DNA of 64,000 nt, taken from assembly GCA_020543525.1 (NCBI GenBank), contig JAHYIO010000039.1:2462848-2526847 (forward strand), in the 5' to 3' direction. Numbering within the stretch: position 1 is the stretch's first letter; the number at the start of each line of letters is the position of its first letter. Made by a program: the position numbers and the translations under genes. Of this stretch, positions 1 through 36,593 are shown one piece after another. Below the pieces are notes generated by a model, which did not search any database, was not told the origin of the DNA, and saw nothing but the letters and a program-made list of their open reading frames with translations. This DNA is from Coriolopsis trogii (taxonomy: Eukaryota > Basidiomycota > Agaricomycetes > Polyporales > Polyporaceae).

Positions 1-2
1 AT

Positions 3-176
3 TCGAGCTCGACCGACCTTTCTCAGGAGCCCTTTATGGATGTCCCGCCGTATGTGCGAGATAGTACATCGTCTCCAATCCCCGCTAGAGTCGAACGGAG
101 CGAGTGGAGCACTGTCATGGGCATCACGGAGGAGGACGAGTCCCTGTCTCCGCCTCCTGCGTACTCCCGCGACTAG
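3..176 (+). CDS. PT1: 3' end of a PY-tail family membrane protein (partial)
   Basis: Only the last 57 codons are in the window; the frame is open from the left edge and stops at TAG 174-176. The visible peptide is hydrophilic, Ser/Thr/Pro/Glu-rich, and carries two PPxY-type cores: VPPYV about 15 residues into the fragment and a C-terminal PPPAYSRD. Family members further right (for example those ending at 4558, 8658 and 15318) also end with PPSY or PAY within the last few residues, and that is the reason for the assignment. The DGGVRLAGG block seen in most relatives is absent from this stretch. It could be the end of another Pro-rich protein; membership rests on the PPxY pattern and on adjacency. 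Confidence 0.5.
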   Translation, partial: SSSTDLSQEPFMDVPPYVRDSTSSPIPARVERSEWSTVMGITEEDESLSPPPAYSRD

Positions 177-928
177 AACTCTTACGGGTCTCCTCTTCAC
201 CTCAACGAACGCCTTGTGCTCTTTTGATTCATGCACGTAGCTTTGACAACACTCCTTCGCTTCCTTCTCTTCCTCGCTCATTCATTCTACGTTATGTCTC
301 CTATCTGAATCCGGGAACCATCCGAGACGCGGACGTTGTATTTTCCCCCAGCATAGCCGACCGCATGGAGCTTTCCAACGCACATCAGCTCTGCTCTGCG
401 GTTGCTTCAAAGATACTCATAGCATATCTATTGCTCTTTAAGGCGGATGATGGACAAGATGTTGACCTTTGGCCGAACGATGGTAGTACGATAGCCTGAC
501 TTGGAACGCCTTGATGAGGTGGGACTGTCGGAGGCGTTTCAAAGTTTGACCGCAATGAGCGTTGACAGTTGCCATGCCCACATTGCCAGAGTGATCGTGA
601 ATGTACAGGAGCTATACATCCCTCACACCTCCATGCGGGCGAGTTTTTCCTAGCAGGTGACCAGCCACTCGAGAGCAACGCTGTTCATCGACACGCATCG
701 ATCGTGACCCGCATCATCTGCCATAACCTTTTCGACGCGGATACTATGAGAGTATTTAGGGTGAGTCGTCCATTCAGAACCCACCAAAATGTGGCAGCTC
801 AAGATCACATGTTAAACAGTGTATCGCCAGCTATATGATGCTCTACATCACGTTCTCCTTATGCATAAGGAGTTCCGTAGCCAGACAACGCCCCTCTTCA
901 CTTGCCTCCCCTTCTGCTGCATACTCTC
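177..928. other. Intergenic, no gene recognised
   Basis: About 750 bases between PT1 and PT2. Short open frames exist on both strands, but none shows a recognisable domain or a plausible intron chain. An upstream first exon of PT2 carrying a signal peptide could lie here. Confidence 0.4.
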
Positions 929-2511
929 ATGGACATTGCCATGTCTATCTTCTCGACTCACATTGAAATCATCGACGACGGAGACCCTCGTGTTATATTT
1001 AACGGTCCGAGAATCACGCTCGCAACGGAGAACGATAAAGACTTCAACAATACCACGACTATGTGTCCCCAATTTTCTCTCACGTTTGAAGGTACGCTTC
1101 ACTTGAAATCTCAGTTCCAGCAAGCAAGCTGACTGATAGTCTTTCAGGCTCTTCTGTCAAAATCTTTGGGCGATTAGTACCGTTTGAGGATGCCTACGGC
1201 CATGTGACACTCACCGACTTCACCTCGGGGCCACTCCAAGATATGCAGGAGATATCGATTGCCACTGTCTCATATCAGTCACGGGCCCTATTATACGCGT
1301 CCCCCGTATTAGATTTCGGTCGATACATTGTTCAGGTGGATTCGGCCGAAGGGATATACCTCGACTTCTTCAACGTTACCACTATGGCCATTGAGCCACC
1401 GGCATACTACGACAGACATGCTACGACAGACACAACTACTGTAGTCATCAGCACGGTAGTGACAACAACGACAGAGAGCACGGAGACGACAACAACGGCA
1501 GACACCACGAGGACCACTGCGACTAGTCCCACGTCTTCGCCCATATCAAGTTGAGTCTTCAGATCGGTTGGGTTGGACGACGACGTGGCTGATTTGATAA
1601 CTAGAAATCCCCGGGCCTATGAATCTAAGTCAAGAAAGTGCGCCAACGCCTAACTTCCCGATCGCAATAGTTATAGGCGTAGCATTCGCTGTGTTTGCGG
1701 GGATAGCTTTGGCGTCCTTGTTCATATCCCGGCTTCGAGCGTGGAAAACGAGGAAACGTTCTGCGTTGCCCTTAGCAAGCTCAATCAAACAACTCGGTAT
1801 GCATGCGCGATGCACCTCATATTGGATTGCGCTCATGTCGCTCACAAGCACCTGGTCTCGCGGATACCATGGGCGACGGCCTGACCAAACAGCAGTCTAT
1901 AACGTCTGTATCCGCAAGCAGTGACATCAATTCATCGAGGGGTGGAGTAGATTCATTGGAAAATTCTGCTGAATCTGCGAGTATTCGAGTGCACGCGCCG
2001 TCGTCCAACGTCTTCGTTGGAGGTGAGTGTTACCTTGTGTATCAAGATCTCCCGTTGACGAGCTCCGTGTTTGTGCCAGATACTGACCCAAATACCGAGA
2101 GGCAATCAGGAAGCGTATACGCGGCGAGCGTGTACAATATCGAAGAATCCCGCAGGAATCTTCGGAGACGGTATGTTCAGTTTGCCCTTTCTCAGTCAGT
2201 CACGACCTCACAAACCTACGATATTATCAACTCAGAGAGCTGTCACGCTCAAGAAATGACGTCAGGAAGCTACCGTCTAGTTCTGCTGAGTTGGTGCCGG
2301 AAGCCGGAAAAGTAGTCGCCTCACAGTGCATACCGACTACGCAGACGATATATCGGACTCGGATGTGACAGAAGCGAGCACATCCACAGTCCCTCCATCG
2401 TATTGCACCTCGTGGACACTTCCGCCGTCGTATCACACCATGTCGTCAGATCGTATGGACAACTCGCAGCCCCCTTCATCACCTGCACAGTCCCGGGCGG
2501 CCAGTTACTAG
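929..2511 (+). CDS. PT2: long-form PY-tail membrane protein with beta-sandwich ectodomain
   Basis: Suggested exons are 929-1091, 1148-1549, 1605-1796, 1849-2022, 2080-2170, 2236-2279 and 2327-2511, which join in frame to about 416 residues. The first two exons give an ectodomain that aligns by eye with PT6 and PT12 (IDDGDPRVIFNG early, then VKIFGRLVPF and YLDFFNV). A Thr-rich stalk follows, with a run of TTT and TET triplets. The membrane helix is NFPIAIVIGVAFAVFAGIAL and continues into a basic stop-transfer segment (RLRAWKTRKR). The tail holds two PPSY motifs (VPPSYCT, LPPSYHT). The DGGVRLAGG block of its relatives is missing. The start is uncertain: the ATG at 929 gives a weak signal peptide and an upstream exon is possible. 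The last two splice sites are tentative. The likely location is the plasma membrane, N-terminus outside. Confidence 0.6.
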
Positions 2512-3426: not shown

Positions 3427-4558
3427 ATGGCCGACTCATCCAGCACACTCTTCAACAATCTGCCACTAGTGACGGCCTGCGCAGTCATCGGTGCTCTGTT
3501 CATAGGAGGCACGCTGTACATCTACTGCTTCAAGCGGAAGTACACATACACAGACTCTGACGATAAGGAGAAGTCCGGTGAGTACATCATCATCTTTGGA
3601 CCCTTTCGTGTCTCATAGTATGGCTCGGATATACACAGGCGGTTTGAATCCATCCGATCCAGGCGCGAGCATCTCCAGGTCAGCGGCCGCGACGACGTCC
3701 AGCCAGCTTGAACACTTCCAACGGGGACCTCTCGCGGCGACGTTACCCCGAGGCATAGAAGAGCCGCTAGCACCTAATTGCGTCCCATCTGTACACCCTT
3801 CGTCATCACGACCGACCCATAGAGATAGTGTGGTGATAGAACAAGTCCCGGAGTCTCCATCGTCGCCGAGCGATCGCTCATTCTACCAAGACACCGAGTC
3901 GCAACGCACGGATCAATCGCGTTTCAGCGTCGTGGATCAAAGAGACAGTGGTGGAAGTTGGGCATCGGCCTCCGTACACTCTCCCACCGACGACGCAAGC
4001 ATACGCGCACAACCAGACGCGGACATCCATGCATTGCAGGTCGTCAATGGTGCTAGGACAGAGAGTACCCGCGATCCGTCATCGCCGCCTCCTGCGTTCT
4101 CACCTCCATTGACGCCATCGACCTTCGATTACGATGATGATGGCCTCTCGCTCAAAACATCGTCTACCCTCCCGCCGTCCTATCGCACCCGGCATTCTGC
4201 CCCTGATCTCTCTCACCCACTGCCTCCCCTGCCAGGCCCCCAGGTCCCGGGCTCGCCACGCACTCCGCCTCCGTCCGCCTATTTCCAGCGTGGTCACAGG
4301 CTGTCTCAACACACGGAGTCTAACGCGACGAGACCTTCGGATAGACCCATAGCTGTGTCTGAAGGAGAGGAGGGTGTAGAGGCGCAGCGTTTGTGGGGGA
4401 ACGACCGGCGGACGCGTCTTCGCCAGAAGAGGTCGCGAGATGGTGGCATACGTCTCGATGGAGGCCCATTGGGCATGTCCCCACCGCCGCCGCCTGATGA
4501 TGGTACTAGTATGGACCTGGGATCCACGCGGCCGCCTTCTTATGCCGACGCAAGCTAG
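3427..4558 (+). CDS. PT3: short-form PY-tail membrane protein
   Basis: Two exons, 3427-3577 and 3639-4558, joined by a phase-1 intron with good GT-AG sites, give 356 residues. The ATG at 3427 opens a short N-terminus (MADSSSTLFNN) directly followed by a membrane helix (LPLVTACAVIGALFIGGTLYIYC) and a basic stop-transfer FKRK. The rest is a long cytoplasmic tail. In order it holds a Ser/Pro-rich region, TSSTLPPSYRTRHS, PPPSAYFQRG, SRDGGIRLDGGPLG and a terminal PPSYADAS. There is no ectodomain or stalk. The PPxY motifs are the class bound by WW domains, so a link to a WW-domain ubiquitin ligase or trafficking adaptor is inferred. No enzymatic domain is visible. The splice phase matches exactly. 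Confidence 0.8.
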
Positions 4559-6052: not shown

Positions 6053-6520
6053 ATGAGCCTCGTCTACCAAATCTGCATCGAGGTCGGGCTGGTCCTCGTC
6101 GTCGTTGCCGTCGTCTCGTACATCTACTGGCGCCAACGGCAGCAGGTGAAGCAACTCCAAGCCAGTGCAAAACTTGGATACGATGGTGCGCACACATCAT
6201 CGCTTATCATATCTGACATCGCGTTGAGATACTGTTACGCAGACGACTACTCTATGTACAGCAGAGATCGCTCATGGGGGCGCTATTCTACGGAGGACCT
6301 AGAGAGCGTGGTGACCTCGGACGAGGCCCGGACGCGCTGCCACCCCATCATGCAGGCACCGCCAGCGCATCTTCGGCGCTCCGAGGACGACAGGACGGAA
6401 CATATCTATATGAGACCTGTTGACGTCCTCCCCAGAGTGTCGCCCATGAACCCGGTGGTTCCGGTCCCAACCCCCGCTGTAACGCACACACGGCGAACGT
6501 CCACAATGTCGTCTCGCTGA
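6053..6520 (+). CDS. PT4: small single-pass membrane protein, reduced PT-like
   Basis: The frame from ATG 6053 to TGA 6518-6520 codes for 155 residues, or 136 if a 57-nt intron (6186-6242, GT-AG, phase 1, a multiple of three) is removed. After a very short N-terminus comes a membrane helix (ICIEVGLVLVVVAVVSYIYW) and a basic stop-transfer (RQRQQVKQ). The tail is hydrophilic, with YSMYSRDRSW and a Pro/Arg-rich end, and lacks both STLPPSY and DGGVRLAGG. The short N-terminus, helix, phase-1 intron and hydrophilic tail match the short-form PT design, and it sits between PT3 and PT5. I infer a truncated or diverged copy; it could also be an unrelated small membrane protein. Confidence 0.45.
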   Translation: MSLVYQICIEVGLVLVVVAVVSYIYWRQRQQVKQLQASAKLGYDGAHTSSLIISDIALRYCYADDYSMYSRDRSWGRYSTEDLESVVTSDEARTRCHPIMQAPPAHLRRSEDDRTEHIYMRPVDVLPRVSPMNPVVPVPTPAVTHTRRTSTMSSR

Positions 6521-7509: not shown

Positions 7510-8658
7510 ATGAGCTGCCTGGACTCCAAACTCATCTATGTGATGGTGGGAGAGACGTTCATCGTCGTCGTCCTTCTCGCTCTAGTGCTATTCCAATGGG
7601 TGTACGCTCGACGATGTCGCAAAGCGGAGGAACGACGCCTTCGTGCAAAACAGCTCGAGAGCACTGCTAGTACGTGGTTACATTAAATGTTACGACATCG
7701 CCTCGTCTGACTCGCTTCTACAGGTCAGAATAGGGTGGACGACTCGCATGGTCAATTGGCAGCGCAGTACTACTATGGTCGAAATGCCGGGCCTTTGACA
7801 CCCAATACGACCATATCTGCTGCGTCAACGCAGCCTCTCCTCTCCTCCAGGTTTACGGAGCTCATAGACGATCCGAACGACTTCCAAGCTTTCCCCACAT
7901 ACGAAGCGTACTACAGGGCGATGAGCTCGAGAGCGGCTTCAATCATAGGGCCGTCGTCGAACTCGCCGCCGCACTCGAGTACACTCCTTCCGCCACCGTT
8001 TCCGGCTCACCTCCGTTCGACGGAGATATCTCGAGTCACAATCTCCACCCTGCTCGACGACTACGCCGAGCCGGGTGAAGCTCATGTCGAGAGCTATTCT
8101 GAAGGTGCCATGGACGATAAAGCCGGTGCAAGGCCTGCGTCCCCTGCCGCCACAGTGACATCTTCTGAGTCCGACGGCGCAAGCGGACATTCTGCGAAGA
8201 CCGCCACATCTACCCTTCCACCATCGTACCGCCTGCGTCGATCCATCCCCGTCCCGCCAGCGCTGCCGTTCCCCGTCCCTCCTCTTCCTGCCACTCCTCT
8301 CGAAGAGAGCACCAACATCAACAACGCACCTTTATCTCCTCCTGCATCCCAAAGGCATCGCTCTACGCGACGGCAGCAAGCGCCGCCACCACTTGAAGAG
8401 ATATCCAGAGGATACGAGGAAAGTTGGGACAATACGGGAGCCTTGCTGGTGACCTCGGGGTATGCAGATGACGACGGACCATGCCTTGACGGTTCACCAA
8501 AGTCGCTGAGGTATCCGAAGAAGTCGGTCGACGGAGGAGTCCGTCTCGCTGGCGGTCCGTTGGGATTGGCGTATCCTCCGATGATAGGTGCTGCTGAAGG
8601 TGCCGCCACTCGATCCGGGGCACTCGCAAAGCAGCCGCCGTCCTATTCCCATTCTTAA
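7510..8658 (+). CDS. PT5: short-form PY-tail membrane protein
   Basis: Exons 7510-7669 and 7724-8658 join at phase 1 to give 364 residues. The start ATG opens MSCLDSKLIYVMVGETF, leading straight into a membrane helix (IVVVLLALVLFQWVYA) and a basic stretch (RRCRKAEERRLRAK). The tail is long and Ser/Pro-rich. In order it has TATSTLPPSYRLRRS, a Pro-rich run (PVPPALPFPVPPLP), KKSVDGGVRLAGGPLG and a terminal PPSYSHS. There is no extracellular domain. The N-terminal Cys3 is the only cysteine before the helix. The architecture and motif order match PT3, PT8-PT10 and PT13-PT15. Function is unknown; the PPxY motifs suggest recruitment of WW-domain proteins to a membrane. Confidence 0.82.
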
Positions 8659-9460: not shown

Positions 9461-9607
9461 TAGCCCATCTACGTCTTCTTCGACTCATCACTGTTCTGTT
9501 CTGTTTACGGTTGACCAGACACACCAGAGAACACGTTCACCAACTGCTTCTTCGCGCGGACTAGTACAGGTAGTAGCTGCTCGGGGACCCATGGAGAGAA
9601 CACAGTC

Positions 9608-11010
9608 TCATCCTACCCTGGGATACCGCTCGTACAGAGGAGGCAAGGTACATACTTCGCTGGCGACATCGTCCGCCTCTTCTCCCGGATAGCCCCCAGC
9701 AAGTCGTACACCTCCATCCAGCGAACGTCTTCGCCCTGCTGCCTCCAACCTGTTTCTGGCCATTCTCTCGGCTTCCGGTTGAGAACGAGAGGTTGTGTCG
9801 CTACCGCTTGTGCTGGACCACCCGCTTTGGAGCAATGAGCCGCTCGACGCAGTCCAGGCGCCCTTCTCGTAATACGCGGTGGATGGCGACTCAGGAGTCA
9901 CTGATCAACATTGCGCCCGTCGAGAGTAAGTGAGTCGGTATACTCCATGCGGAGGCGGAGACAACAATAACTCACCGAATGGTTTCACCCTCTCTTGATA
10001 TGCCAGATGCCTTCGGTGCCGCTTCCACCACCACGCTCCCCCAGCGAGAGCGATCAGGACTACTACGCCTATCGTGACACCTGCGATCATACCTGCCGGT
10101 GGTGACGTCTCGACAGATGTACTATCAGTCTTGACGGGTGTTCCAGGTACCGGTGTGGTAGAGGGTTGGTCATTTGTCGATGCTCCCGGTGCACCGCTTC
10201 CGGTAATGAACGGGGTTGTCGTTTCTGAGTGTGCGGCTAACGGTACCTGAGGAGGGAACGATGACGACGAGGTGGATAAAGAATCTGTGTTTCTTGCGGA
10301 AGACGGTGAAGGAGTTCCTGGCGTACTGACTGAGGGTGGCTGCCGTACGGATTCCGGACCGGACGTTGTGGATTGATCCTGAGTATTACGCGAAGGCGCC
10401 GGGTCCGACTGCTGGGCTGGCTCGGTTGGTTTGCTCGCTGAAGGTAGTGACTGCGAGCGGGAGATCTGAGGCGGTGTTGGGGTAGGCGGTGGGCTGGCTA
10501 CCCAGCCTGGAGGAGCGTCGCCTCTGAAGCGGACGAAATCCAGCCAGTATTCGTTCCCGAGGTTAGTCATGACAAGGGTATATTCTCCGTATGGGACCTT
10601 AGGAGAGGTGTAAAAGGTCTGGCGGAACTGAGGAGACGTGACGATGTTTGGAGGCTCAAAGAACACTGGGCCTGGCTGTCCGCTGAGGTCGTATTGGGAT
10701 CTCATGTTGTACGTGCCCGCTCTCTCGTACGACCCGATCACTTCGAACTGAGTTCCTGTAGAGCGCGCGCACGATGTCTCGTGAGTATGACTTGCTATAG
10801 AAACAACAACATACCCATAACTAGGACAGTCGCAGATGCACCAGAGACATTTGTGTAAGTGATGGTGCTCCCCCAATTCTGCTCGTTGACGTCCAGGTTA
10901 CGGATCCAAGCGCCATGGAACTTGATGTTTGGATCCGCGTCGTCATATATGCCGAGGACTTGGAGTATGAAGCATAAGATAAGGAGTGTGAGTCTAACAA
11001 GCCGGCGCAT
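9608..11010 (-). CDS. PT6: long-form PY-tail membrane protein with ectodomain and Ser/Thr/Pro stalk
   Basis: Exons on the minus strand are 11010-10815, 10755-9976 and 9900-9608; both introns are phase 1 and the total is 422 residues. A signal peptide (MRRLVRLTLLILCFILQVLG) is followed by a beta-sandwich-like ectodomain: FHGAWIRN, YTNVSGASATV, then FEVIGSYERAGTYNMRSQY, RQTFYTSPKV and the hallmark MTNLGNEYWLDFVRF. Such modules in basidiomycete membrane proteins resemble galactose-binding-like folds; ligand unknown. A stalk of about 140 Ser/Thr/Pro-rich residues leads to the helix (MIAGVTIGVVVLIALAGGAWWW) and basic KRHRR. An intron sits right after the hinge VKPFG. The tail has RRSLDGGVRLAGG and ends CTLPPLYERYPRVG. 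A cell-wall or surface sensor-like layout is inferred. Confidence 0.85.
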
Positions 11011-11899: not shown

Positions 11900-13534
11900 T
11901 TACACGAATGCGTAGGGCTGATACACGGGTGGCAGAGTGGATACTGCGCTCCTTACCTCAGCGAGGTCGACACTACGTTCTCGCAAAGGGCCTCCAGCAA
12001 CCCGCACACCGCCGTCCAAGGACCGACGCGGTGTCGCTTCGGGTACGTTCATCTGCATAGCTCTCCACTTGGACGATGGAGCAAGGCGGGTTGGCGAGAG
12101 TGTCGAAGGCGTCAGCAGGGATAGACCGTCTGCATTGCGAGGCACAGAGCGACGGAAGACGAGAGGCGATGTGACGGAGGGCGAGGGGGGTGCTTGGTCT
12201 TGGGCAACATTGGTGCGTATGCCAACTTCGGGATGTTCCTCCAATTCCTCATGGGTCGTAGTATAGCCACCGGCATTGCTCAACTCCGCATCGATTTCGT
12301 CGACAACGCTGCATGGCAGCTGCTGTTGAGCTGACGACGACATATACCACCTTCGTGAGAGTTGAGATATCTCTGATGTCGGAGACATCAGCCCAAGATC
12401 TTGGGAAGCAAGGGTAAGCATTCGTGTTCCCCTATTGTGCACGACACCCACCAAAGGGATGAACGTCTCTCGTAACAATACGGACAGGCTTTCGAACGCG
12501 ACGACGACGGCACCATACGACCAGTCCAGCTACCATGAGTGCGACCAACACAAGGCCGCCCGCTCCTATTCCTGCATACATTCCGGGGCTCATGGAGGGG
12601 GAAGTATCTCTCTGCGTTGGTGGCGGGCGTGTCGCACCTTCGCTAGTGGTTGTGGATCCTGGTAGTGTGCTGATCGCGGATACCGTCCCGAGCGACTCGC
12701 TTGCGGACACGGTGGACCCGTATGAGGTGAGTATAGATTTGCTGCTAGACTGCTGCCGTTCTGGTCGATGTCATAGCCTTGTTCTCGGGGGAAGATGAAG
12801 AGACAAGCTTTGTCTCTGTTGGAAGAATCATAGGGCTCGACGTAGGGGACGTTCCAGGCGGCAAGCTCGTCACCGGAACCTGCGTCGGTACCGGGGTCGA
12901 GATTGTCGTAGACGGCGTTACTGGAACGATGAGCTGGATATAGTCCAAATAAAACTTTTGTCCCAGATTGTGTACCGGAGGTGAGGGCGTTCGACATGAA
13001 GAATGGCTGTCTAATCTCGGCTTCTTTGATCGTGGCGGGGGGCATATACTTTGAGATATTTGTAGAGTCGACGCTATACTGCGAGGCGAACTCGAATGTC
13101 CCGAGCACCGGGAATGCGCCGAAGACCCGTACCTGAAGCGCTGTCTCAAGCTCCATCAGCGATGCTAGTCTACTAGCTTGTGCAACTTCTAGCTCACCGT
13201 CAGAGAAGGTCAATGTTGCTGTTGAGCCGGAAACGTTGGTCGCGGACAGCGTGGCTCCCCAGTTGTGGGGGTCAGGGATAAGATTTCTCACCCATGACCC
13301 AGAGTACTCGATCCTCGAGTCGGAGTCATCCACGTTCAGGGCAGTCGCAGGTGGTGCAGCGCATCTGGAGTGTGTGAAGAGTGCAGTAACAGTAAGGAGT
13401 GTGGGGGAAGGAACGACGATCGCATCGCTATCTGTGGGGGGAGTGGCAGGCGCAACGTACTTTTGGGGTGTAAGGAGAAATCCCTGCATTGCGATCGGCG
13501 TTCGCAGATGCATCTTTTCGTCTACAGGTCTCAT
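11900..13534 (-). pseudogene. PT7: long-form PY-tail membrane protein, reading frame disrupted
   Basis: The first exon (13534-13198) encodes an N-terminus and the first half of the ectodomain (YSGSWVRN, TNVSGSTATLTF). After a phase-1 intron, from 13140, comes ALQVRVFGAFPVLGTFEF and RQPFFMSNALTSG, where the frame breaks near 12990. The expected continuation (HNLGQKFYLDYIQ) is in another frame, and about 20 bases are missing relative to PT12. A second break lies near 12710-12747, before the membrane helix (MYAGIGAGGLVLVALMVAGLVVW). The tail follows an intron after the VHPFGG hinge and is intact: RRSLDGGVRVAGGPL and terminal STLPPVYQPYAFV. Paralogues have no intron at either break, so real frameshifts (or assembly errors) are more likely than splicing. 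Without these it would closely resemble PT6 and PT12. Confidence 0.65.
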
Positions 13535-22193: not shown

Positions 22194-22992
22194 CGAGCAC
22201 CGGAAAGACTATGGTAGAGGGTGAGGCATAGCGAATGCGCCGAACCGCACGTACCTGGGACATATAGGTAAGCACAGGGAAATTCACATGGTCACCATCT
22301 CGATGCGCAGTGTAGCCCGATCGCTGATGGCCCTGCTCAAGCGTACCAGTACTGGGCTTCTACCCGTACCGGAGTGTATTCGTGGTGCGCATACTGCATG
22401 GGGTGTAGTTCGTGAGTAGACAAACGGAGGACACCCATATCGTCAAGAGACTAGCTGAGCAGAGATCCTCCGAGGAGTCTGACTCCTGAGAGCGGTAGAG
22501 TGAGTCGATGCGAAGGACAATTCACTATGATGAACATCAGCAATTCAGGCACACCATCTCGAATAAGTCCTTACTCACCAAACCAACAGGAGAGCCGCCG
22601 GATAACACTGCGAAATTGATTTTATGGACCAATCATGGCAAAGCTCGTTGTTGCGTTGCATCACGGTAAGTATGTGGCTGATCATGTCAGCAGTTCACTG
22701 ATGCCGCGCCGTCCGGCCAATAAGGAAACGTAGACGCGGAAGGGCATCGTTTTATCACCTCCACACACCGTGTACACAGCTACTCACTGAACTGCTTGGC
22801 GAGCAGGATGAATGGAAAGAGATGGCATATTCAATTCTTTCGGGTGCCCAAGCATGCAGAACTGACTCAATAGTGAACTGAAGCCGTGTGCAATGCGCAA
22901 GAAACCTTTGTACGCAGCGCTAAAGTAAACTTACTGAACGTTTGCAGCTCGTCTCCGTAGACATCCCATTCTCTCCGTCGAAACCCAGTGGC
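22194..22992. other. Intergenic between PT12 and a BTB pseudogene
   Basis: About 800 bases holding the PT12 promoter (divergent to the BTB locus). No gene recognised. Confidence 0.4.
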
Positions 22993-24296: not shown

Positions 24297-24712
24297 CTAT
24301 GTATCAACGGGAGTCGGATACAAGATGGCAGTAAGTACGAGGCTGCCCGTGGAAGCGCCCGTGCAGGTCACAAGCACGATACTTACTGATGTTACCGCGA
24401 CTATTGCGTCTGATAACAGCCGCCTAACATCTATAGCGACCACGACCCTCGAGTGCACCATCGCCGACGGAGAATCGACCATCCTGGATCATTTTACAGA
24501 CGAGTGTCACCGTATGTGAGTCTGTCTCACCCTGCAACTCATATGCTACTTCCAACCAACCTGCGTGAGCGCTGTCGGACTGAGCTTGAACTGGTTGCAT
24601 TAGAAAGGAGGAACCTGAGACCGACATCTTTGACGAACTAGCATTCTCACACTCAGGTTCCTGGCTCAAAGAAGACGCCGCTGAGGACGCGGACATCAAG
24701 GAGGAGCCAAAG
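24297..24712. other. Intergenic, possible 5' exons of the next BTB gene
   Basis: An acidic open stretch around 24625-24712 (DELAFSHSGSWLKEDAAEDA) could be an upstream exon of the BTB gene that follows, but no in-frame join could be fixed. Confidence 0.35.
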
Positions 24713-26448
24713 ATGACACCGAAAGATGGCCTCGCAAGAGACGAGTCGCCGCGGGCAGGAACAGTGAATAGTGGCAGGCGATCCCACCCCGCATCATCTC
24801 AAGGTGTCGACACTGGCAGAAAACGGGTACAACGGCTTCCTCATTACCGCACTTCACTTTTGCTGACAAGGATGGACACGTCATATGACTAGACTGCCAG
24901 TCAGTCCGACTCTGCTTCGAGCCAGAAGCGTTCTAGGACGGGTGGCAGGGCGGATGCAAACTCGGACGCAGTGCCCTCCAAACCTCTCACCTGGATCACA
25001 ATCCAGCCTCCGCCCATATGGAAGGCCTCATCCGGCACAGTGATCCGCATCCCTCGGACACATACACCTGCCAGTGCGCATGTGTCGTCATTATCGACAC
25101 ATGCAAATATTGAAGTTCGTAGTGACGGCACTGTCTTTCCACTGTCTTCCCGGAAATGTTTCCCTACTCTTAGATCACTCGCCAGGAGCCTTGCCAGACC
25201 TTCGGATGCACAAGCGAGCTCGTCTGCAGATGTCACTCTACGCGTCACCTCGAATCCGACACCACCAGCGACCGCTGAACCGACCCAAATGCAGACACCC
25301 CCTATTGCTCATGTGCAATCTCCTCAATACCCCTCAGCATCGTCCACCAGTTCTACCTCCAAAGCGGGTATACCGCCCAACTCTTCTCAGTCAACTCCTT
25401 CATACAAATCACCGCCATCAGAGTCTCCAGCACTGAAGTCTGGCGTGCACGTCGTTCCTTCTGACTTGCGGTCCAAGCACTTTTGGTATCCGGACGGGAA
25501 CATCATCCTCGAACTTGGCAACACGTATTTTAAGCTCCTGCGCTCGCGACTCGAGCGGCACTGCCATTTCTTCCAGCGCTTGGCCCCAGCCAATCAATAC
25601 GCAAAAGAAGACACCGAGGACGACAAGGATGCCCAGCCGTTATATGACCTATCACCAAATATCACGGCCGAGGACTTTGACACTTTTCTCCGGTACCTCG
25701 AGATACCCATGTGAGTTCTCAGCATCCCTTAGCCCCTCTCCGTACGCAGTTCCAGTTTGCCGGCGCTGCTCACCTCTCATCATTGTCTCTCACTAGGGAG
25801 CACTCCGTCGGGAATGCACCACCCCAAGTCGCCCTCTCCCTCCTCCGTGTTTCGAAAACGCTCTCTTGCCCGGTCGTCTATGACCTCGCGCTCAAGAGGA
25901 CCTTCGGGCAATGGGACCTAGGACACCCCGGTCCTCCCCAGCACGGCGACACGCTCTCGGGGATCCCGTACCGCGAAGCCCTCGATATGCTCCCAGTCGC
26001 CGAGGAGTTCAACATGCGCGCGGTCCGCAAGCGCGCGACGTACACGCTCCTGACGAGCAGCGTCTTCTGGGCGGACGTCACGGAGAAGAGGCAGGAGGTG
26101 AAGATCAGCGACGCTCTCCTCTTGCGGCTGTACAGGACGCGTGCGTCGCTGCAGGCGCAATGGCGCGCGCAGGTCTTCACTCCTCTGGCAGTAACCAGGC
26201 AAGGAGCGGGCGCCCATGGGGACGGAGAGGCGTGCGCGGCTGCGTGGTGCGGGGAGTTCGCAGCGTATGCGGTAGCTGAGGTTTGGGACCCGATCCGCCA
26301 GATTGACGAGGTGAGGACGCAGCTTGAGGCGCTGAAAGACGATGGCAAGTGGTCCCATAGCTGTATTGACGACCGGCTCGCGTCTTGGGAAGAGAAGCGC
26401 GCGAGTTGGTGGAAGGAGGTGGACTCTTTACTCGGTGATGAGGCATGA
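24713..26448 (+). CDS. BTB/POZ-domain protein
   Basis: The two main exons are 24901-25710 and 25797-26448, joined at phase 2. The first carries a basic KRSRTGGRAD segment, a Pro/Ser-rich linker and the BTB core: SKHFWYPDGNIILELGNTYF (the first strands), RSRLERHCHFFQRL and the ITAEDFDTFLRYLE helix-strand at the exon end. The second continues with PPQVALSLLRVSKTLSCPVV and a helical region (VRKRATYTLLTSSVFWADV), typical of the basidiomycete BTB proteins whose domain end is followed by an all-helical C-terminus. It ends with WCGEF and two Cys-containing segments. The 5' exon (from ATG 24713 or further upstream) could not be joined in frame with confidence. These proteins are usually protein-interaction adaptors, possibly Cullin-3 linked, but no partner is known. 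It is convergent with its close paralogue at 26724-28306. Confidence 0.72.
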
Positions 26449-26723: not shown

Positions 26724-28306
26724 TCAAGCATCGTCAAGCATCGCATCCATCTCCTGCCACCACGCCACCCGAGCCTCTTCCCAAGACGCGAGTCTGTCAG
26801 CAACGCAGCCGTCGCACCACTTGCCACTCTCCCGCAGAGCCCTGATCCACGCCTGCACTCGGTCGATCTCCCGGAGCGGGTCCCTGACCTCGGTCGTGAC
26901 ATACCCGGCAAAGTCCCCACACCAGGCTGCGACCCGTCCCTCTCCCTCGATTGCACCATGGCATCCGGGTGTGTTGCACGGTTGGGACGGAGGTGCGAGA
27001 CACTGGATGCGCCACTTTTCCTGGAGAAGTGCGCGCGCGCGGTAGAGGCGGAGGAGGAGAGCGTCCGTGATGCCGACCGACGGCCGCATGGTTGCGTCTG
27101 TGACGTCGACCCAGAACGCTTCGCTCGCGAGAACTTCGTAGAGCGCGCGTTTACGGACGTCGGGCATTTGAGCGTCTTGAGAGATGGGTATGATATCGAG
27201 TGCGTGGTGGTAGTGGATACGCGAGAGGGCGTCTGCGTTCGTGGGAGGACGTGCTGGCAAGGGCTGTGACTCAGTCCAAGGCCTGAGGATTCGCTTCTGC
27301 ACGGAGTCGAAGACAAGAACACATAAGAGCTGTCGAGAGGTATGGAGCAGCGACATAGCGATGGTGTGCGTTTCAATGGAATTGTCCCTGTGGTGACCCA
27401 TGAGCAATCGCAGATACGAGCATTGGCTCCTGAGGCGTTACTCACATTGGACACTCTAGATATTTGAGGAAGGTGTCGAACTCTGAGAGCGTAATGTCTA
27501 GCGAGACATTATAGAGAGGGAGAGTGCCGTTATCGGCTCCTGGGTCCCCCATAGCATGCTCCGGGTCGTTTACGTAGAATTGCGTCGGCAGAGTCGAAAA
27601 GAGCTCCCGGAAGTACCGGCAGAATCGTTCAAGACGAGAACGATAGAGCTTGTAGTACATGCCACGAAGACTGAGAACGACGTTCCCATCCGGATACCAG
27701 AACTCTCGAGAGCGGTAATGGAGAGGGACTAGTATATGCGCTTGCGCACCAAAGTCCTGCGAGGCGCTGTGGACGGGCAAGTCTCTTGGCATGACTGCAT
27801 CCGACCCTGCTGATGGACTATCCAAAGTGTTTGGAGGAGGTCGATTCATCACTGAACTAGTGGTTGCAGAGCCTGGCGCTGCGCACTGGCCCCGAGCCGG
27901 CGCATTGATATCGTATCTCTGGTCGCCCACTTGCACATTCACAGAATAGAGCGTACCGGAGCTGCCAGTAAAACTGTCAGATGGCGATTTACTGTGAAGA
28001 GGCCGGGGAATGTGCACAAAGTACTGTACATTACCTGGCAGCGAGCCCAGCCTTTGTCTTGTCGCCCGTTCTTGTGGTAGGCTTTTTGCGTTTCTGCCCC
28101 GACCCCGACGGAGAGTCATCATCCGAGTCAAACATGCGCTGTTGAGGGAGTCGTTAGAGGAACACTCTCGACACAACCGAAGCACTTGGACAAGGGGGCA
28201 AAGCTCGTACCGTCCTTTTTGCGGATGCCCTACTAGCCTCCATCTTGGCGAGTACCGCGTCTGCTGACTGAGCAAAATCGTCGTCCGAGTCTATTATCCT
28301 TCGCAT
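26724..28306 (-). CDS. BTB/POZ-domain protein
   Basis: Minus-strand exons 28306-28211, 28138-28035, 27991-27446 and 27387-26724 join exactly (phases 0, 2, 2) into 469 residues. The start MRRIIDSDDDFAQSADAV is acidic, and a second acidic-basic segment (FDSDDDSPSGSGQKRKKP) may hold a nuclear signal. The BTB core begins REFWYPDGNVVLSLRGMYYK, continues RSRLERFCRYFRELF and crosses the last intron at FDTFLKYLECPM. The C-terminal half is helical, with RKRALYEVLASEAFWVDV, NTPGCHGA, AAWCGDFA, WCDGCVADR and a Trp-rich end. Five Cys and one His in these segments could bind zinc. It is convergent with a paralogue ending at 26448, and the two share the same intron inside the BTB fold. Adaptor function is inferred from the family. 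Confidence 0.85.
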
Positions 28307-28454
28307 AGCACGTTTGAGAGCTGGCGAGTATAGCGTGAATGGTGATCGCAAAGTTAGTGCAAGTTTGTGGGACAAGGCGAGTCCAAGCAAGTCGCGATCG
28401 TGAGTCGCGACCGGATATCGCCGGCCCGGACGCTACCGTCGCGCGTGCAAGTTC

Positions 28455-29541
28455 TTGTCTCAGACGTTGTCTGTCTTCCTCCACCGTCCACCCACTTTGT
28501 GCCATTCCTCGCGCTCTGGAGATATATCTGAAGACGAATCATGGGAGAAGAAGTCTGACTGCAATCATTCATATTGTCGGAAAGGTCTTTTCTACGATCA
28601 ACTACCACAGCATACACACCGCCAGTGCAACCATTGCCACCAGATGAAGCGCTGCAAGGACAGCACAAACGGCGAGACCGCTAGCTTTCAGCTCAAACGC
28701 TGCGCCGGGTGCCATATGGACTCGTACTGTGTGAGTACTTCCGACGTCCAGTTCACCGACGACCAACGCCCTTCTCACTGACTTCCATGGCGTTTGTCGA
28801 AATCGGTAGTCAAAGGAGTGCCAGACGGAGGCGTGGAAGAAAGGACACAAGAACACTTGCAAATTCGTCTCCGAGCTACGCAATCACGCTACCCAGATCT
28901 CCTCCAACCCACAAGCCTGGCCTGAACTCATGGAGTGGGTCCGCTTCCATCACAACACGCTCATGAACGCCACTCTCGCATGCTACATCGAGCAGAAGGG
29001 CACCGACCTCGACGTCTCTGAGAACAGCATTTTCACCATGATCATCCAGTACCGCAACGACCCTCGCGTGCCCATCGAGCGCAAGTTCGAGCTCCGGGGC
29101 TCAATGATGATTCGCAGTGACCCCAACTCGGACGAGGTGGATCCGTGGATCCGTGGCAAACTCGTGGCCGCCTCCCGCCCGCAAGCGGTCACGATGAGCA
29201 AGCGCGAGTGCGGGGCTGACTACTGGGCTACCGGTGCGTACCTGCTCATGGTTCGTTTCAATCCGGAGAAGGACGAGATGCTCCCGTTCTACAAACACTT
29301 CGCGATCGACCGTCTATATCAAAACGCCCGCCTCGCCTGTCGAGACCTCGCGCATCAGCTGAAGGAGAACCTGGAGTACGGGCAGAAGATGGACTTTTGT
29401 TGTGGGCGGATCGAGGGTTTGTCTGATTGCTGCTGCGGAGGCTGGACCCATAGGTCAGTGAGTTGCCACTTTTGCACGCAATGTGAGACCGCACCGAATC
29501 ATTCTCCGATCTGTGGTAGAAGGTGCTCGCGAGCGAAGTAG
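28455..29541 (+). CDS. MYND-type zinc-finger protein
   Basis: Three coding segments are clear: up to 28730, 28810-29453 and 29520-29541. The MYND finger is split by the first intron, with QCNHCHQMKRC and KRCAGCHMDSYC before it and SKECQTEAWKKGHKNTC after it, so the Cys/His spacing is canonical (C-x2-C, C-x2-C, YC-x-x-x-C, H-x3-C). Downstream about 200 residues contain WVRFHHNTLMNATLACY, RKFELRG and a Cys cluster near the end, FCCGRIEGLSDCCCGGW. MYND fingers generally bind Pro-rich peptides or accompany SET domains; no SET domain is present here. The start is uncertain: the frame is open from about 28455 but lacks a convincing ATG, so an upstream exon is likely. It is the convergent paralogue of the gene at 29998-30967. 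Confidence 0.72.
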
Positions 29542-29997
29542 ATTGACAAAGTCCCCACTGTTCCAGGTGGGACTACGGTCAACTCGACCTCTTCTGCGAG
29601 CCTCTAATTAGGATGGACGCAAATATCAGACTTTTTCCTCACGATCGTCGATGCGAGCAAATGGCACGCACAAGGCACGCATCGAGTACTCGACTGAGGC
29701 CTGAGGGCGCGAACGCGCTGTGACTAATTCACGTGATTTCCGTCACATCAACTCGCGAGGGCTTCCTCCTGGCCAGTATCGTGTTATACGTCTTGCAGCC
29801 ACTGCCAGGTCGATCGAGACCAACTTTGGACTCTGCAAAGAGTGTCTGAAAACTGGCAGCTAAGCAGCGAGTCTATCTGGCGTCACAAGATCGTCTAACT
29901 CCTGACGACTGCCGTTTGCGCGCGTGCGTAAAGATTCGCTATACCGGGCAAGCAATGACTTATATTACAGTTGCTGCATACAGAGACTCTTATGGAT
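29542..29997. other. Convergent intergenic region between two MYND genes
   Basis: About 450 bases containing both 3' ends. No additional gene seen. Confidence 0.45.
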
Positions 29998-30967
29998 TTA
30001 CCACGGCACCTTCGCTTTGTGACCAGACTGCAACAGACGTCAGCGAGCCAGAATTGTGTGATACCGCACCCGGAACACGTACCACTTCATGAGTCCAGCC
30101 CCCGCAACAGCACGTCGGCAGCCCCTCTATCTTCCCGCAACAAAAGCGCAGCCTCTTCCCCTCGTGCAAGTTCTCCCGCAGCTGTTCCAGTGGGTTGCGA
30201 CAGGAGAGGACAGCATTCGCGCGCCACTTGTCGATCCCGAAGGTCTTCCAGAACAGGATGCCGTCCACGCCAGGCTCCGTCTTGTGTGGGCGGAAGCGCA
30301 CGACGAGGATGTATGCACCCACATTCCAGTAGTCGCTGCCAAAGTTCATCTTCGCCAACTTGATTATCCCCTCGCGCTCCGCGAAGACGCTCCGGTAGAG
30401 CTCGGCACAGTCAGGATCGTCCTTGGGGGACAGGCGCGCGCCGCGCATCTTGAACTGCTGCTCGACGGGCAGGCTCGCGTCGTTCCGGTAGTCCAGCGAA
30501 ATGTGAAGGAGGTGCGTGGCGGCGACGTCCGGGATCTTGTCCTTCATGTGCAGCAAGCACGCGAGAGTCGCATTGATGAGTGTCGCATGGTGGATGGTGA
30601 CCCAGGAGGCCAGGTGCAACCACGCCTTCGGATTACCCGAGAGTTCAATGGCGCGGTCGCGACCGATAGTGTGGATTTTGCAGATGTGCTTGTGGCCTTT
30701 CTTCCAGTGTTCCTTTTGGCATGCTTTGGACTGTACGTGCAATCGTAGTCAGCGCATTGCAAGCTGTGATCATATCACGGACTGGAGACATACACAATAC
30801 GTTACAATGTTGCATCCCGAACAAACCTGGAGCTTCCAATCGACGCTGTTGCCTTCGCAGCGACGCATACGGAAGCAATTCTTGCAGTGGGCATGGGTGT
30901 GCAGAGGTTCCGCGTCGTGGAAGAGATTGAGGTTGCAGTGAGTGTGGTCAATCACGGTGGTGTCCAT
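29998..30967 (-). CDS. MYND-type zinc-finger protein
   Basis: Minus-strand exons 30967-30794, 30730-30083 and 30027-29998, all phase 0, give 283 residues. Exon 1 (MDTTVIDHTHCNLNLF...) carries the first MYND ligands (HCKNCFRMRRC, CSGCNIVTYC) and exon 2 completes the finger (SKACQKEHWKKGHKHIC). The remaining domain aligns with its convergent neighbour: WVTIHHATLINATLACLL, QQFKMRGARL, NFGSDYWNVGAYILVVRF, then FCCGKIEGLPTCCCGGW just before the last intron. The CCxxxIxGLxxCCCGGWTH Cys cluster is conserved between the two and may be a second metal site. No SET domain. Role unknown; protein-protein interaction through the MYND finger is the general expectation. Confidence 0.85.
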
Positions 30968-31358: not shown

Positions 31359-32543
31359 TTAGCAATCCGATTGATAGGCAGGCAACCCCAACCCAACCAC
31401 CTCCTCGCCGTATACTAACACAATCTCGCGCTCTTGCCCCTCGCTGGGGCTGCCAAGCGGTCCGCCGGCAAGCCTCAGCCGTCCGTCCACAGGCCTTCGC
31501 ATCCTGGGGATCGCGGTGGGTGGGGAGACGGCTCCTCGAATGGGCTCATCATTCGTGAGGGGATTGCCAGGTAAGACGTCCTCGTTTGTTCCTAGCGTTG
31601 TCGTACCTGGTGAGGGTTCCGTGGGATAGGTTCGTGTGTGAGCGGTGCTCTGTACGTTCGAGGACGTCCGCGGGCCTCGTGGGCGGCTCCGCCCTCGTCT
31701 CTCTACACCAGCGCCGCCCCGGACGAGTGCGGAGGGTGGCAAAGCCATACTGGCGCTCCATGGCGAGTTGTATGCCAAGTCGACTTCCGAGCGGCGCGTG
31801 CGGTACGAGGGTGGGAGTGTCGAGGAGGTCATCAGTGAACACCCGTCTGCGCCTGTGTCTGCGCCCGCGTCTGCGCCCGCGTCTGCGCCCGCGTCTGCGC
31901 CCGCGTCTGCGCCCGCGTCTGCGTCTGCATCCGTATCTGAATCGGGTACGGCAACGTCTTCTGCCTCGACCAGCCGTAAGCTTGGGTCTACGAGAACGGG
32001 AGGATCCTCGTTCGTGGTCCGCGGCGGCCCATGTGCAGGGAGAGGACGCGCAATGCACAAGCTAGCATTTGGGCCAGCCGGTGGAAGATGTGGACCGTAG
32101 CCAGGGCGTCGCGGTGTGAAATTTCGAGCGGGGAGCTCGGAGAGTAGCCCTGCGAGTCTCGCAGTCAGCGATGGTGACTGCTGATGGGGGTCTCGCTCCG
32201 CTGCGCTGCCCGACTGAGCGCGGGGCGCCTCTTCAACCTGGAAGGGGTGTCTCGGGCGAGCAAGTCCGTTCTCCTGCAGCTCGAGATCGCGTTGCGTCCG
32301 GAACTGTTGACGGACTCCTGTGAAGCAAGGGATGGACGCTGTATCTGACTCGGGATTAGACGAACTAGGAGACTTACGCCTTCGCTTGACTTCCACATGC
32401 ACAGCATACCATACAGACACCATGCAGAAAAAGAGCACTGTGCACGTGCGTGACCTGCGTCAGTTCGTTGTGTGACGTTGCAGTTGCAAGGACGTACCTA
32501 GACAAGTAGCTATAATGTTTATGGTAGTGAAAGTGATGGACAT
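31359..32543 (-). CDS. PT13: short-form PY-tail membrane protein with Asp/Ala/Gly repeat
   Basis: Minus-strand exons 32543-32498, 32437-32378 and 32317-31359, both introns phase 1, give 354 residues. The 46-nt exon 1 (MSITFTTINIIATCL) and exon 2 (VLFFCMVSVWYAVHV) together make the membrane helix, split by an intron. A basic KRRR ends exon 2. The tail contains RQQFRTQRDLELQEN, a low-complexity acidic run built from Ala-Gly-Ala-Asp units (listed as a repeat), TSSTLPPSYRTRRS, YNSPW, RSRPRGPRTSS, RPVDGRLRLAGGPLG and REIVLVYGEEVVG ending in LPAYQSDC. It is closest to PT14 and PT15, with which it forms a head-to-tail tandem. No ectodomain. Confidence 0.85.
31844..31932. repeat. Coding minisatellite, 12-bp unit
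   Basis: The unit GCGCCCGCGTCT occurs five times without change at 31861-31920, with degenerate copies on both sides. On the minus strand it encodes the Ala-Gly-Ala-Asp run of PT13. The 12-bp period keeps frame, so copy-number change alters protein length only. Confidence 0.9.
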
Positions 32544-33205: not shown

Positions 33206-33479
33206 TCACTCGACCCGAATGAGCAGCGCCACCTCCACATCACCAACCTCCTCATAGACCATGGCCAGCGCCATCTCGCGTTCTACATCAGAATCGGGGA
33301 CGCTGGACGAGCCTCCAGCGGGCCTCATCCATCCTTCCACTGCGCTCCGTTGGATATCAAATGCTGGGGATCTCCTGGTGTCGGCCAAGGCAGGTATTGG
33401 ACGCTCTCGCAGGATGCGGATCTCGTCCTCGTTCTCGTCCTCGGCGTCGGTGTCCTCCGTTCCCAGCCAGCCTCGCAGA
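33206..33479 (-). pseudogene. Relic PT C-terminal tail
   Basis: Just downstream of PT14 on the same strand, one frame encodes SAVEGWMRPAGG followed by REMALAMVYEEVGDVEVALLIRVES-like sequence. This lines up with the DGRVRLAGGPLG block and the REIVLVYGEEVVG C-terminal block of PT13-PT15 at similar spacing. The rest of the gene is absent. It is most simply the leftover 3' end of a deleted PT copy. Confidence 0.5.
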
Positions 33480-34648
33480 TCAGCTCTCCACTCGACCCGG
33501 ATAAGCAGGCAAGCCCGCCCGGACGACCGCCTCGCCAAGCACCAACACCAGCTCGCGCTCCCCCCGCACCTGCTCCGGGTCCAGAACGCCAAGCGGGCCC
33601 CCAGCGAGCCGCACCCGCCCGTCCACAGACCGGCGAACAAAGGTGGTGCGAGTGGGCGACGCGGCTCCTCGCTCGGGCGCATCGTCATGCTCCGCGGGGA
33701 GACCGCGCCGCCCGCCTTCCTCGCGAGTATCAGCTCGACGCGCACGCGACGCAGTGGCAGGGGCGGGGAGAGTGGGTAGAATGGGTAGAGCGCGTAGAGC
33801 GGGCGTACGCTGCACGCTCGAGGACGCCCGGGTCCGAGTCCGCGGGACGCGTGTCTTGCTCAGTCCTCCCCGTCTCCCGTGTCTGGAGGACGCAGCGGGC
33901 GCGCGCGCGGTGTGCGTGCTCCAGGGCGAGTCGTACGGTGGCGGGGACCCGAGGGGGACAGGCGTGCGGTGCGCATAGTCGAGGTTGGACCGGCGCGTGC
34001 GGTAGGACGGTGGGAGGGTCGAGCTGGTCATTAGCGAGCGAGCGTCGGAGGGCGAGTCCGAGTCCGAGTCCGATGCGGCCTCTTCGTCTACGTTGGCTGA
34101 TTCTGTCTCTAGCTTGGGCGGAGAGCGCGGTTCCAAGGCTGGAGCACCAAGGCGGGGTGGCGCAATAACCCGAGTGTCTACTTCAGACATCGGCGGGCGA
34201 GGGTCAGCCTCAGGAGGCTGGAGCGGCTCGGAATCGGTAGGCCTGGCATTCGACGCAGACTCTCCGCGTCTCGCGTGGGCAGGTGGCGGCGACGGCCTCA
34301 ATGATGGTTGCGGACGTCTGTGGGCGATGTGGAGGATCGTTCGGTCGGATGGGCTGCGGGGGTGGGATGCGTCTTCGGCTTGGAGCAGCTCGAGATCGGG
34401 CAGCGAGTGGAATCCTTGGCGTGCGCCTGCGGGGGGTTCGGACAACTAATAGTGAGAGACGCAGGCAGCAGGCAGGGCCCAAGGACTCACGCGATCGGAA
34501 GCAAGCTGCAAAAGACATTGCGCAAAAGAGGAGCACTGGCGGTGCACACCGGGGTTTCGCGTTAGTGGCTTGCGTGACGCTCTTTGGCCTGGGAGGACGT
34601 ACTGAGACAGGTCACGACGAAGCTGGTGATACTGAAGCTGAGCGTCAT
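33480..34648 (-). CDS. PT14: short-form PY-tail membrane protein
   Basis: Minus-strand exons 34648-34603, 34535-34491 and 34426-33480, phase 1 throughout, give 345 residues. Exon 1 (MTLSFSITSFVVTCL) and exon 2 (MLLFCAMSFAACF) build the membrane helix around an intron, followed by RSRARQGFHSLPDLELLQ, matching PT13. The tail includes an acidic SDSDSDSPSD run, TSSTLPPSYRTRRS, PPPYDSPW, RRSVDGRVRLAGGPLG and ERELVLVLGEAVV ending LPAYPGRVES. Base composition is very G/C-rich here, which leaves long open frames on the opposite strand; the motif order, splice phases and paralogues fix the true strand. It is the middle gene of a three-copy tandem. Confidence 0.85.
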
Positions 34649-35269
34649 CTCCCTGATAATCGCTGTCTCTCTTGCACGAGTGCGTGTGCTTTATATCGGT
34701 GAGTAGTAGCAGAGGAGCCGACTGTCGTTCAAACTTCATCTCATCAGCAAGAAGTTGAACCATCGGTGTTCGCAACTGCCACCAGACGTCGGTCGGTGCC
34801 ATGATGGGCCTTGACGAGTCGTCTGGTCATCCGTCAAACAAAACACCTTGTGATTTCGATCGTTCAAAGGCCTGCATAGGGAAGGGGATGAAGAGGCTGG
34901 TCACCGTATCGGACACAACGACCGGCGTGTTATCTAGAGCTAAGCATGATCAAAATAGACGTGACATTTGGGTGTCGAGAATGGTTGTGAACAGGGGGTG
35001 GTTCGGCCGTCCTTCATTGATGAGAGCTAGCCTCGAGTTTGCGAACCATTCTTTGCACGGACTCTTGTGATACTCGATCTATCCAATCCCACACGCAGTA
35101 CATCCACGCTCACCTGCAAACCAGTCGGTACGGTACGTGCACCATCGCCCAACGTGTGCCAGCTCTCGCGTCTCACCCTCTTCACCACGGACACTGATGT
35201 AGCAGCCAGTCGCACGACGCACGATGACGCGACGACTGACGAGTCATGCCCAACGTCCCCAGCATCCTC
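34649..35269. other. PT14 promoter region
   Basis: Contains the second copy of the duplicated promoter block (about 34687-34890) and the 3' flank of PT15. No gene recognised. Confidence 0.45.
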
Positions 35270-36593
35270 TCAGCTCTCCCCCCGGCTTTCGACCCTCCCC
35301 TGATAAGCAGGCACCTCCACCCCAACGACCTCCTCCCCATACACCAATACCACCTCCCGCTCTCCCCACTCCAAAGCACTCAGATCGAGCACCCCAGGCG
35401 GGCCTCCCGCAAGCCTCACCCGTCCGTCTGCCGACCGCCGTCGGTGCACGCTCGAGGCCGGTCCGGATGAGTCGGCCGCGTCCAAAGAGACGAGCGGGAG
35501 TGGGACGGTCTGGACGGTCTCGCTGGAGGCCGCGCGCGGAGTCGTCGCCGTGCTCAAAGTCAGGTTTGAGGACGCTGCCGATGGAACGGAAACGGACGCA
35601 GGACGGGGACGATCCTGGGCGTCGCCAATGGGGCTCGTCGGGTGCGCACACATATCGCTACCAGTGCCAATCCTCTGCACGCTCAAAGACGTCCATAGAC
35701 CCCGTGGCCCGCCCGCACCCGCGCCCCGTCTCCCAAAGTACGCAGACGGCGGCGATGTGGTGCTCCAAGGCGAGCTGTACGACGGTGGAGAGGCGAGCGT
35801 CGAGACCAACGCGGAGTGGGAGAAGTCGAGGTTGGAGCGGTGGGTGCGGTATGATGGCGGGAGGGTCGAGGAGGTGATTATCGAGCTTTCGTCAGCGTCG
35901 GTGTATATGTCTGCTTCTGCGTCTGCGTCTGCGCCGGTGTCGGGGTCGGGGTCGGCGTGCGGGTGCGGGTCGTACTCGGCCTGTGTTTCAATTAGCTGGG
36001 ATGGTGAGGGCGGGCGCGAGCGCAGAGTAGGAGCAGATGGGGAGTCTGTTTTGGTGATTGGGGGGGGGGGGTGGAGGGAGAGGGCGCCCGGTAGGTGCCG
36101 GGAGGACGTCGGCCAAGGGCGGGAGAGAGAAAGGCAGCAGAGAGGCTCGGATGAAGAGCTTGGAGGACGGCCTCGCAGACGGCCCGGGCAACGGCGACTG
36201 CTGGTTCTCGCCGGCAGTGGAACGGGGTATCTGATCGGATTCGTTACCTGTGCGTGTCAGCCTGTCTTCGATTTGGGGTATCGAGCGGGGAATGATCCTG
36301 CTCTCCTGCAGGTCGGGATTGTGCGGGGTCCTGGAGCGTCGTCGAGCTCCTGCAATGGATACACGCATGAGTATCGTGCCCGCCTCGTAGTGAATGGAAG
36401 AGGGACGACACTCACTCGACGACTTAGCCTCCACATGCAGAGCGATCCAAATAGCCATGGCAGCCACGGAGAGGAGCAGCGCTGCGGACGGTCCTGTATG
36501 GATACATGCGGATGTGAGCTCTTGGTATGTGGGAGACGTACCGAAAGAGAACGCTGTTGCCACGATAGTCCCTGTGGTAAAGTTGCTGGACAT
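35270..36593 (-). pseudogene. PT15: short-form PY-tail membrane protein, frameshifted at a 12-G run
   Basis: Minus-strand exons 36593-36542 and 36493-36416 (MSSNFTTGTIVATAFSF plus GPSAALLLSVAAMAIWIALHV) make the helix, with phase-1 introns as in PT13 and PT14. The third exon starts at 36349 (RARRRSRTPHNPDLQESR) and should run to 35270, but it is 1080 nt, one base too long to stay in frame. The frame breaks at 12 consecutive G on the plus strand (36060-36071). Beyond it, the expected motifs are intact in the other frame: TSSTLPPSYRTHRS, PPSYSSPW, RRSADGRVRLAGGPPG and REVVLVYGEEVVG ending VPAYQGRVES. This may be a real inactivating slip, a slippage-prone polymorphic tract, or a homopolymer error in the assembly. 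Confidence 0.7.
36060..36071. repeat. Homopolymer run of 12 G inside a PT coding exon
   Basis: Twelve G in a row on the plus strand (poly-Pro codons on the minus strand of PT15). It coincides with the point where the reading frame changes. Confidence 0.9.

Follow-up and report, generated by a model that had tools for sequence, protein, structure and literature searches.

The 64,000-nucleotide stretch analysed here (the window), the right-hand end of contig C36 (2.53 Mb) in the 38.8-Mb genome of Coriolopsis trogii, contains an array of nine genes for tail-only proteins, each laid out as fewer than about 20 starting residues, one membrane helix and a long tail. Judged by sequence, the end of this tail is also carried, in receptor-like proteins of the same fungus, behind ectodomains of at least two unrelated kinds, and it recurs in receptor-like proteins of six other polypores; both the tail-only nature of the core genes and this sharing were missed by an earlier note on this DNA, made from its letters alone. 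In its usual form, the tail end consists of a basic residue with Ser, the block DGG[VI]R[LI]AGGPxG, about 14–26 further residues and a terminal LPPxYxxY-like motif. Tail-only proteins have an extra internal PY block, STLPPSYxTRRS. The tail, its conservation at the protein level, its spread across ectodomains and species, the core genes without an ectodomain and an Rsp5-type gene are all read in the sequence. That the tail is a conserved docking tail for Rsp5, with the tail-only proteins acting like yeast Rcr1 or fly Comm, has in our estimate an even chance of being right.

A degenerate DNA pattern for DG-x-x-R-x-AGG gave 29 matches in the genome against one for the reversed control. Twenty-three of them lie on C36 at 2.128–2.498 Mb, within 400 kb of the telomere, and the remainder on contigs C4 (two), C6 (one), C20 (two) and C30 (one). 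The earlier note had bounded the array at 3–36593, but the tail end extends about 335 kb beyond the left edge of the window and also occurs on other contigs. The copies read number 29, i.e., 28 of the 29 matches plus the gene at 3427–4558; the match at C20:88331 (L032), which has S in place of R and no supporting model, was rejected as a member. The DGGVRLAGG block is encoded by 29 distinct DNA strings in these copies, with mean pairwise mismatches of 0.13, 0.008 and 0.69 at codon positions 1, 2 and 3, respectively; the choice of copies in part forces the low values at the first two positions but has no such effect on the third-position figure or on the terminal motif. The motif [LPV][PA]xY is found within the last 14 residues in 26 of the 29 copies, which were not selected for it. 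The STLPPSY pattern has 12 matches in the genome, all on C36, compared with 2 in the control, and seven copies of this block show mismatches of 0.03, 0.10 and 0.61 at the three codon positions. Since the third codon positions of the block are near random, recent duplication was rejected as the source of its likeness between copies. The earlier claim of a cytosolic tail common to many proteins and kept by selection is well supported by the 29 matches against one and by the third-position divergence. The VRLAGG of DGGVRLAGG presumably resembles the C-terminus of ubiquitin, although one Arg is replaced by Ala and the residue that follows is mostly Pro; the likeness is probably a coincidence.

The nine tail-only models (A1, A3, A4, A5, A6, A7, A8, A9 and A10) were built with a gene finder written for this analysis and trained on 29 long open frames; their splice sites are predicted, and the first exons were settled by listing the splice choices. 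The frames of all nine are intact and encode 269–374 residues, and in six of them exon 1 spans 46–58 nt and the first intron falls within the membrane helix. A hydrophobic stretch lies within the first 70 residues of every model (mean hydropathy 2.1–2.8 over 19 residues). Because basic residues follow the helix in five of the nine, as read from the models, the proteins are predicted to start outside and to have their tail inside. In the alignment, the STLPPSY and DGGVRLAGG-type blocks are present in eight models, and A7 retains degenerate remains. Folding of eight tail exons gave a mean pLDDT of 50, with neither a four-residue helix nor a three-residue strand, as a disordered tail should; the tails are predicted to be disordered.

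Ten ectodomain queries, four from Coriolopsis trogii and six from polypore proteins, were run over 264 kb (E ≤ 0.01) and detected no ectodomain in the tail-only genes, although a strongly diverged one would escape them, as at 0.97–1.1 kb in the window. They gave 26 clusters, 16 of a first ectodomain class and 10 of a second, some being self-matches of the queries. Three clusters fall in the window, at 10526–10986, 12883–13369 and 21586–22124, all at receptor-like genes, and the idea that ectodomain exons of the core genes had been overlooked was rejected. The earlier statement that the tail is more conserved than the extracellular parts is thus inapplicable to the core genes, which have no detectable extracellular part. 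When two tail-only proteins were searched against the genome, relatives were found only between C36:2466899 and 2499064 (about 33 kb); this confinement rests on two single-protein searches, the first of which missed two known members and thereby marks the detection limit. On another contig, the locus L029 (G000:C4:198000–201700) combines a DGGIRLAGG tail with an N-terminal-looking helix, with neither a detected ectodomain nor PPxY, and is perhaps a distant tail-only gene.

The first ectodomain class has a CBM6/CBM35-like beta-sandwich fold in its predicted structure, and carbohydrate binding would be a possibility, although having a fold in common does not establish function. No CBM family is among the Pfam matches of the Coriolopsis trogii receptor-like protein or of seven related polypore proteins (P0001–P0007). 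This class differs from CBM6/CBM35 sandwiches by its attachment to a membrane helix and a tail and by the lack of a Pfam CBM match; among the structures listed, the fold is also found in non-binding proteins. For the second class, a Kre9-like identity was rejected, as no such Pfam match was obtained. The seven polypore proteins were found with a receptor-like query (E 4.6e-101 to 1.9e-9), together with two weak matches in other fungi. They come from Earliella, Fomes, Daedaleopsis, two Ganoderma, Trametes and Sparassis and are annotated as 'hypothetical protein' or uncharacterized. All seven end with PPxY, and six carry RRR[SA]xDGG[VL]RIAGG, the seventh having a diverged form. When they are aligned, seven residues (D, G, R, A, P, P and Y) are invariant over the 37 columns between DGG and PPxY inclusive, and one over tail residues 317–470. 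The ectodomain of about 130 residues has 12 such residues; therefore, it is conserved too, and only the mid-tail is not. Ectodomain, stalk, helix and tail end are alike in these proteins and the receptor-like proteins of Coriolopsis trogii. Yet, all of them have the ectodomain, and the tail-only form, unlike in Coriolopsis trogii, was not seen among them.

A protein search with residues 208–374 of one tail-only protein yielded 1994 candidates and none at E ≤ 1, and a search with the nine-model alignment returned only P0010, encoded on a 1819-bp metagenome contig and 97% identical to A3; because such searches depend on 5-residue words in common and scored no more than about 8000 candidates, they do not show absence elsewhere. 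In these searches, tail-only genes of the STLPPSYRTRRS type were recovered from no other named species. The absence of the motifs outside this genome, which the earlier note would have counted against itself, did not occur, as the DGGVRLAGG/PPxY tail end is present there. No single well-described family with a function, the other outcome which that note had set against itself, was returned by Pfam, NCBIfam or the PDB: a Pfam or NCBIfam family was rejected for the tail proteins, with matches only below the curated cut-offs, the Pfam scan of the nine models contained no Rcr1/Comm-type family, and solved relatives by sequence were rejected, the best PDB matches having E values of 1.3 and 0.47. 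The fruiting-body protein SNB1, which has seven helices (PMC10949477), was rejected as unrelated. No description of the tail was found in the open-access literature searched, subscription papers mostly lying outside it.

PY-motif membrane adaptors are already known. Yeast Rcr1/Rcr2, fly Comm and vertebrate PRRG4 are short proteins with a single membrane pass and PY motifs that act with Rsp5/Nedd4 (PMC5578492). The predicted layout of the tail-only proteins is nearly the same, with one helix and putatively cytosolic motifs of the PPSY/LPxY/VPxY type. The DGGVRLAGG block, the array and the tail end common to receptor-like proteins set them apart; the likeness drawn here is one of layout, and WW binding would follow by analogy. 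As far as our searches of literature and databases reach, a tail-only array whose tail end is common to receptor-like proteins with differing ectodomains has not been described.

Docking to Rsp5 may be inferred because of the abundance of the motif, its extended form, the likeness to Comm and Rcr1 and the presence of a suitable ligase gene. From residue 41 to the end, the nine tail-only models contain 18 [LP]PxY motifs against 1.36 expected (500 shuffles each), an excess of about 13-fold, and eight of the nine have two or more. A hydrophobic or aromatic residue stands at Y+3, three places beyond the tyrosine, in 16 of the 20 receptor-like tails of Coriolopsis trogii with PPxY and in five of the six foreign ones examined, like in the GLPSYDEAL motif of Comm, which PMC5578492 terms extended L/PPxY. 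For yeast Rcr1, this source states that VPEY binds Rsp5 and that PPSY helps (PMC5578492). HECT matches are located at four genome loci (C3, C20, C28 and C30), and that on C3 (2651609–2652605) alone adjoins WW domains, three of them in one 500-residue frame (2652916–2653473), an arrangement of the Rsp5 type. In the proposed mechanism, the PPxY/LPxY motifs would bind the WW domains of Rsp5, and this docking would send the tail-bearing proteins, or their partners, to ubiquitin-dependent endocytosis and sorting. The receptor-like proteins would be Rsp5 cargo, and the tail-only proteins membrane-tethered adaptors for, or competitors of, this set. Since DGGVRLAGG is conserved as strongly as PPxY, it should have its own partner and may dock a second, separate protein. 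The WW/Rsp5 partner suggested by the earlier note is made plausible by the 13-fold excess and the WW-HECT gene, whereas its single common partner would be conjecture, other WW domains being present.

Several observations weigh against docking to Rsp5. Seven further WW matches above the cut-off lie at other genome loci, which leaves candidates besides Rsp5. The copies without an [LPV][PA]xY end are A4, which has SPAY, A6 and L029, the DGGIRLAGG tail of which has no PPxY; A7 also lacks a terminal PY motif and contains no [LP]PxY at all. PPxYxSPW, with nine matches in the genome (four of them in the array) against seven in the control, is not above chance and was rejected as a genome-wide marker. 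Moreover, the chitin-deposition activity of Rcr1 does not require Rsp5 (PMC5578492).

The tail might instead be a docking site for a different WW protein or for an adaptor controlled by phosphorylation, the receptor-like proteins then being signalling receptors rather than ubiquitin clients, with the basic-Ser and acidic-Ser/Thr stretches as kinase sites. This would agree with the seven further WW matches, with the basic residues and Ser that precede DGG in most tail-only copies and foreign proteins, and with the acidic and Ser/Thr residues before STLPPSY. However, many receptor-like copies of Coriolopsis trogii lack basic-Ser before DGG, and no kinase or adaptor was linked to the locus in the analyses made; we regard this explanation as unlikely. 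Terminal aromatic residues can serve as export signals, and in nine of the 20 Coriolopsis trogii receptor-like tails the protein ends exactly three residues past the PPxY tyrosine, the last residue being mostly Y or F. A tail acting as an export or sorting signal, with the terminal aromatics (YRRY, YQRY and YRLY) and the tyrosine addressed to COPII or clathrin adaptors and a secondary likeness to WW ligands, would nevertheless leave unexplained the retention of both prolines and the STLPPSY block that the tail-only genes carry further in; it seems quite unlikely to us. It is very unlikely that the tail-only genes are functionless, decaying leftovers of receptor-like genes, as their subtelomeric place, the degenerate A7 and the blockless frame at 6053–6520 might suggest. 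Against decay stand the intact frames of all nine models and the third codon positions, which differ most in 21 of 21 pairs among seven tail-only genes. In addition, of 307 positions aligned between A3 and its metagenome copy P0010, 10 are different (three gaps and one predicted start Met among them), none within the three blocks.

Beyond docking to Rsp5 as such, a wider picture is conceivable but rather doubtful: lineage-confined receptor tails without receptors, encoded near a telomere, would supply or soak up a common partner and so tune how dozens of receptor-like proteins, with ectodomains that are interchangeable and in part carbohydrate-binding, are trafficked or signal, via a new DGGVRLAGG docking motif coupled to an extended PPxY. 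Mushroom-forming fungi possess many surface proteins that have been placed in no pathway. A single conserved tail end combined with interchangeable ectodomains would point to a common cytosolic route and offer one peptide for finding the partner, and the tail-only array would provide naturally occurring adaptors or competitors with which to test a ubiquitin-dependent trafficking route.

Within the window, a six-frame reading agrees with the earlier note on the positions of the blocks and places them in open frames. STLPPSY is found at eight loci, with an additional WTLPPSY near 2.4 kb, and PPxYxSPW at four. DG[GR][VIL]R[LIV][AD]GG occurs at 11 loci, in eight tail-only genes and in three receptor-like ones on the minus strand (near 9.7, 12.0 and 20.5 kb); nine were found by regular expression, to which the genes at 3427–4558 (D for A) and 31359–32543 (L for V) were added. 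The 'about fifteen' loci of the note are fair as a count of candidates, but the blocks are not common to all, and 'at least 12 loci' with the same blocks is too high.

On the plus strand, A1 (3427–4558, 356 residues) contains STLPPSYRTRHS and DGGIRLDGGPLG and ends with PPSYADAS, and A3 (7510–8658, 364 residues) contains STLPPSYRLRRS and DGGVRLAGGPLG and ends with PPSYSHS. Between them, an open frame (6053–6520, plus) with an N-terminal membrane helix and no conserved block is possibly a decayed tail-only gene. A4 (14446–15318, 269 residues) and A5 (15854–16991, 326 residues; second intron uncertain) have all four blocks and end with SPAYLDT, which is not [LP]PxY, and PPRYQADD, respectively. 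A6 (17781–18735, 299 residues) contains STLPPSYHTRRS and DGGVRLAGGPLT, and A7 (19301–20234, 271 residues) the degenerate blocks. On the minus strand, A8 (31359–32543, 374 residues) contains STLPPSYRTRRS and DGRLRLAGGPLG and ends with LPAYQSDC; A9 (33480–34648, 345 residues) and A10 (35270–36593, 360 residues) have all four blocks and end with LPAYPGRVES and VPAYQGRVESRGES. In A8, a 12-base tandem repeat (31844–31923, 6.7 copies) encodes an Ala-Asp-Ala-Gly stretch directly before the STLPPSY block.

Three receptor-like genes with CBM-like ectodomains at the cluster positions given above lie on the minus strand: 9608–10986 (helix, RRRSLDGGVRLAGG, end CTLPPLYERYPRVG; tentative start), 11900–13372 (DGGVRVAGG, end STLPPVYQPYAFV; tentative start) and 20431–22438 (helix, DGGVRLAGGPPG, end APPSYQYYP; automatic exon model). 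A probable receptor-like gene at 935–2511 (plus, tentative exons) has its helix at 1661 and TLPPSYHT near 2419; its diverged first-class ectodomain (0.97–1.1 kb) is a weak match, with E 0.002 on a 3-kb subject and below the threshold over 264 kb. Positions 1–176 (plus) hold the 3' terminus of a receptor-like gene that begins outside the window, to its left, where its frame and membrane helix were found; it ends with SLSPPPAYSRD and a stop codon and has no DGGVRLAGG.

The contig ends in telomere repeats, (TTAGGG)n, at 63923–63999, which sets the array as subtelomeric, and pieces of a Copia-type retrotransposon lie nearby (59187–61946, plus; matches to Retrotran_gag_2, Pol_BBD, gag_pre-integrs, SH3_retrovirus and rve_3). 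Three genes (24543–26275, plus; 26724–28306, minus; 50064–51.5 kb, plus) have a common xFWxPDGNxxL...FKLxRxRL pattern, which may be BTB-like, although the two examined gave no Pfam match. Two short proteins (28930–29697, plus; 29998–30547, minus) are alike by eye and have no Pfam match. The gene at 37112–38650 (minus) has an EthD-domain match barely above the cut-off (23.5 vs 22 bits); that at 42899–44340 (minus) resembles it by eye, with no match in the one frame scanned. Finally, a frame at about 52.0–52.5 kb (plus) has as its end ESDDDMGFGLFD, which we take to be typical of ribosomal stalk protein P1/P2.

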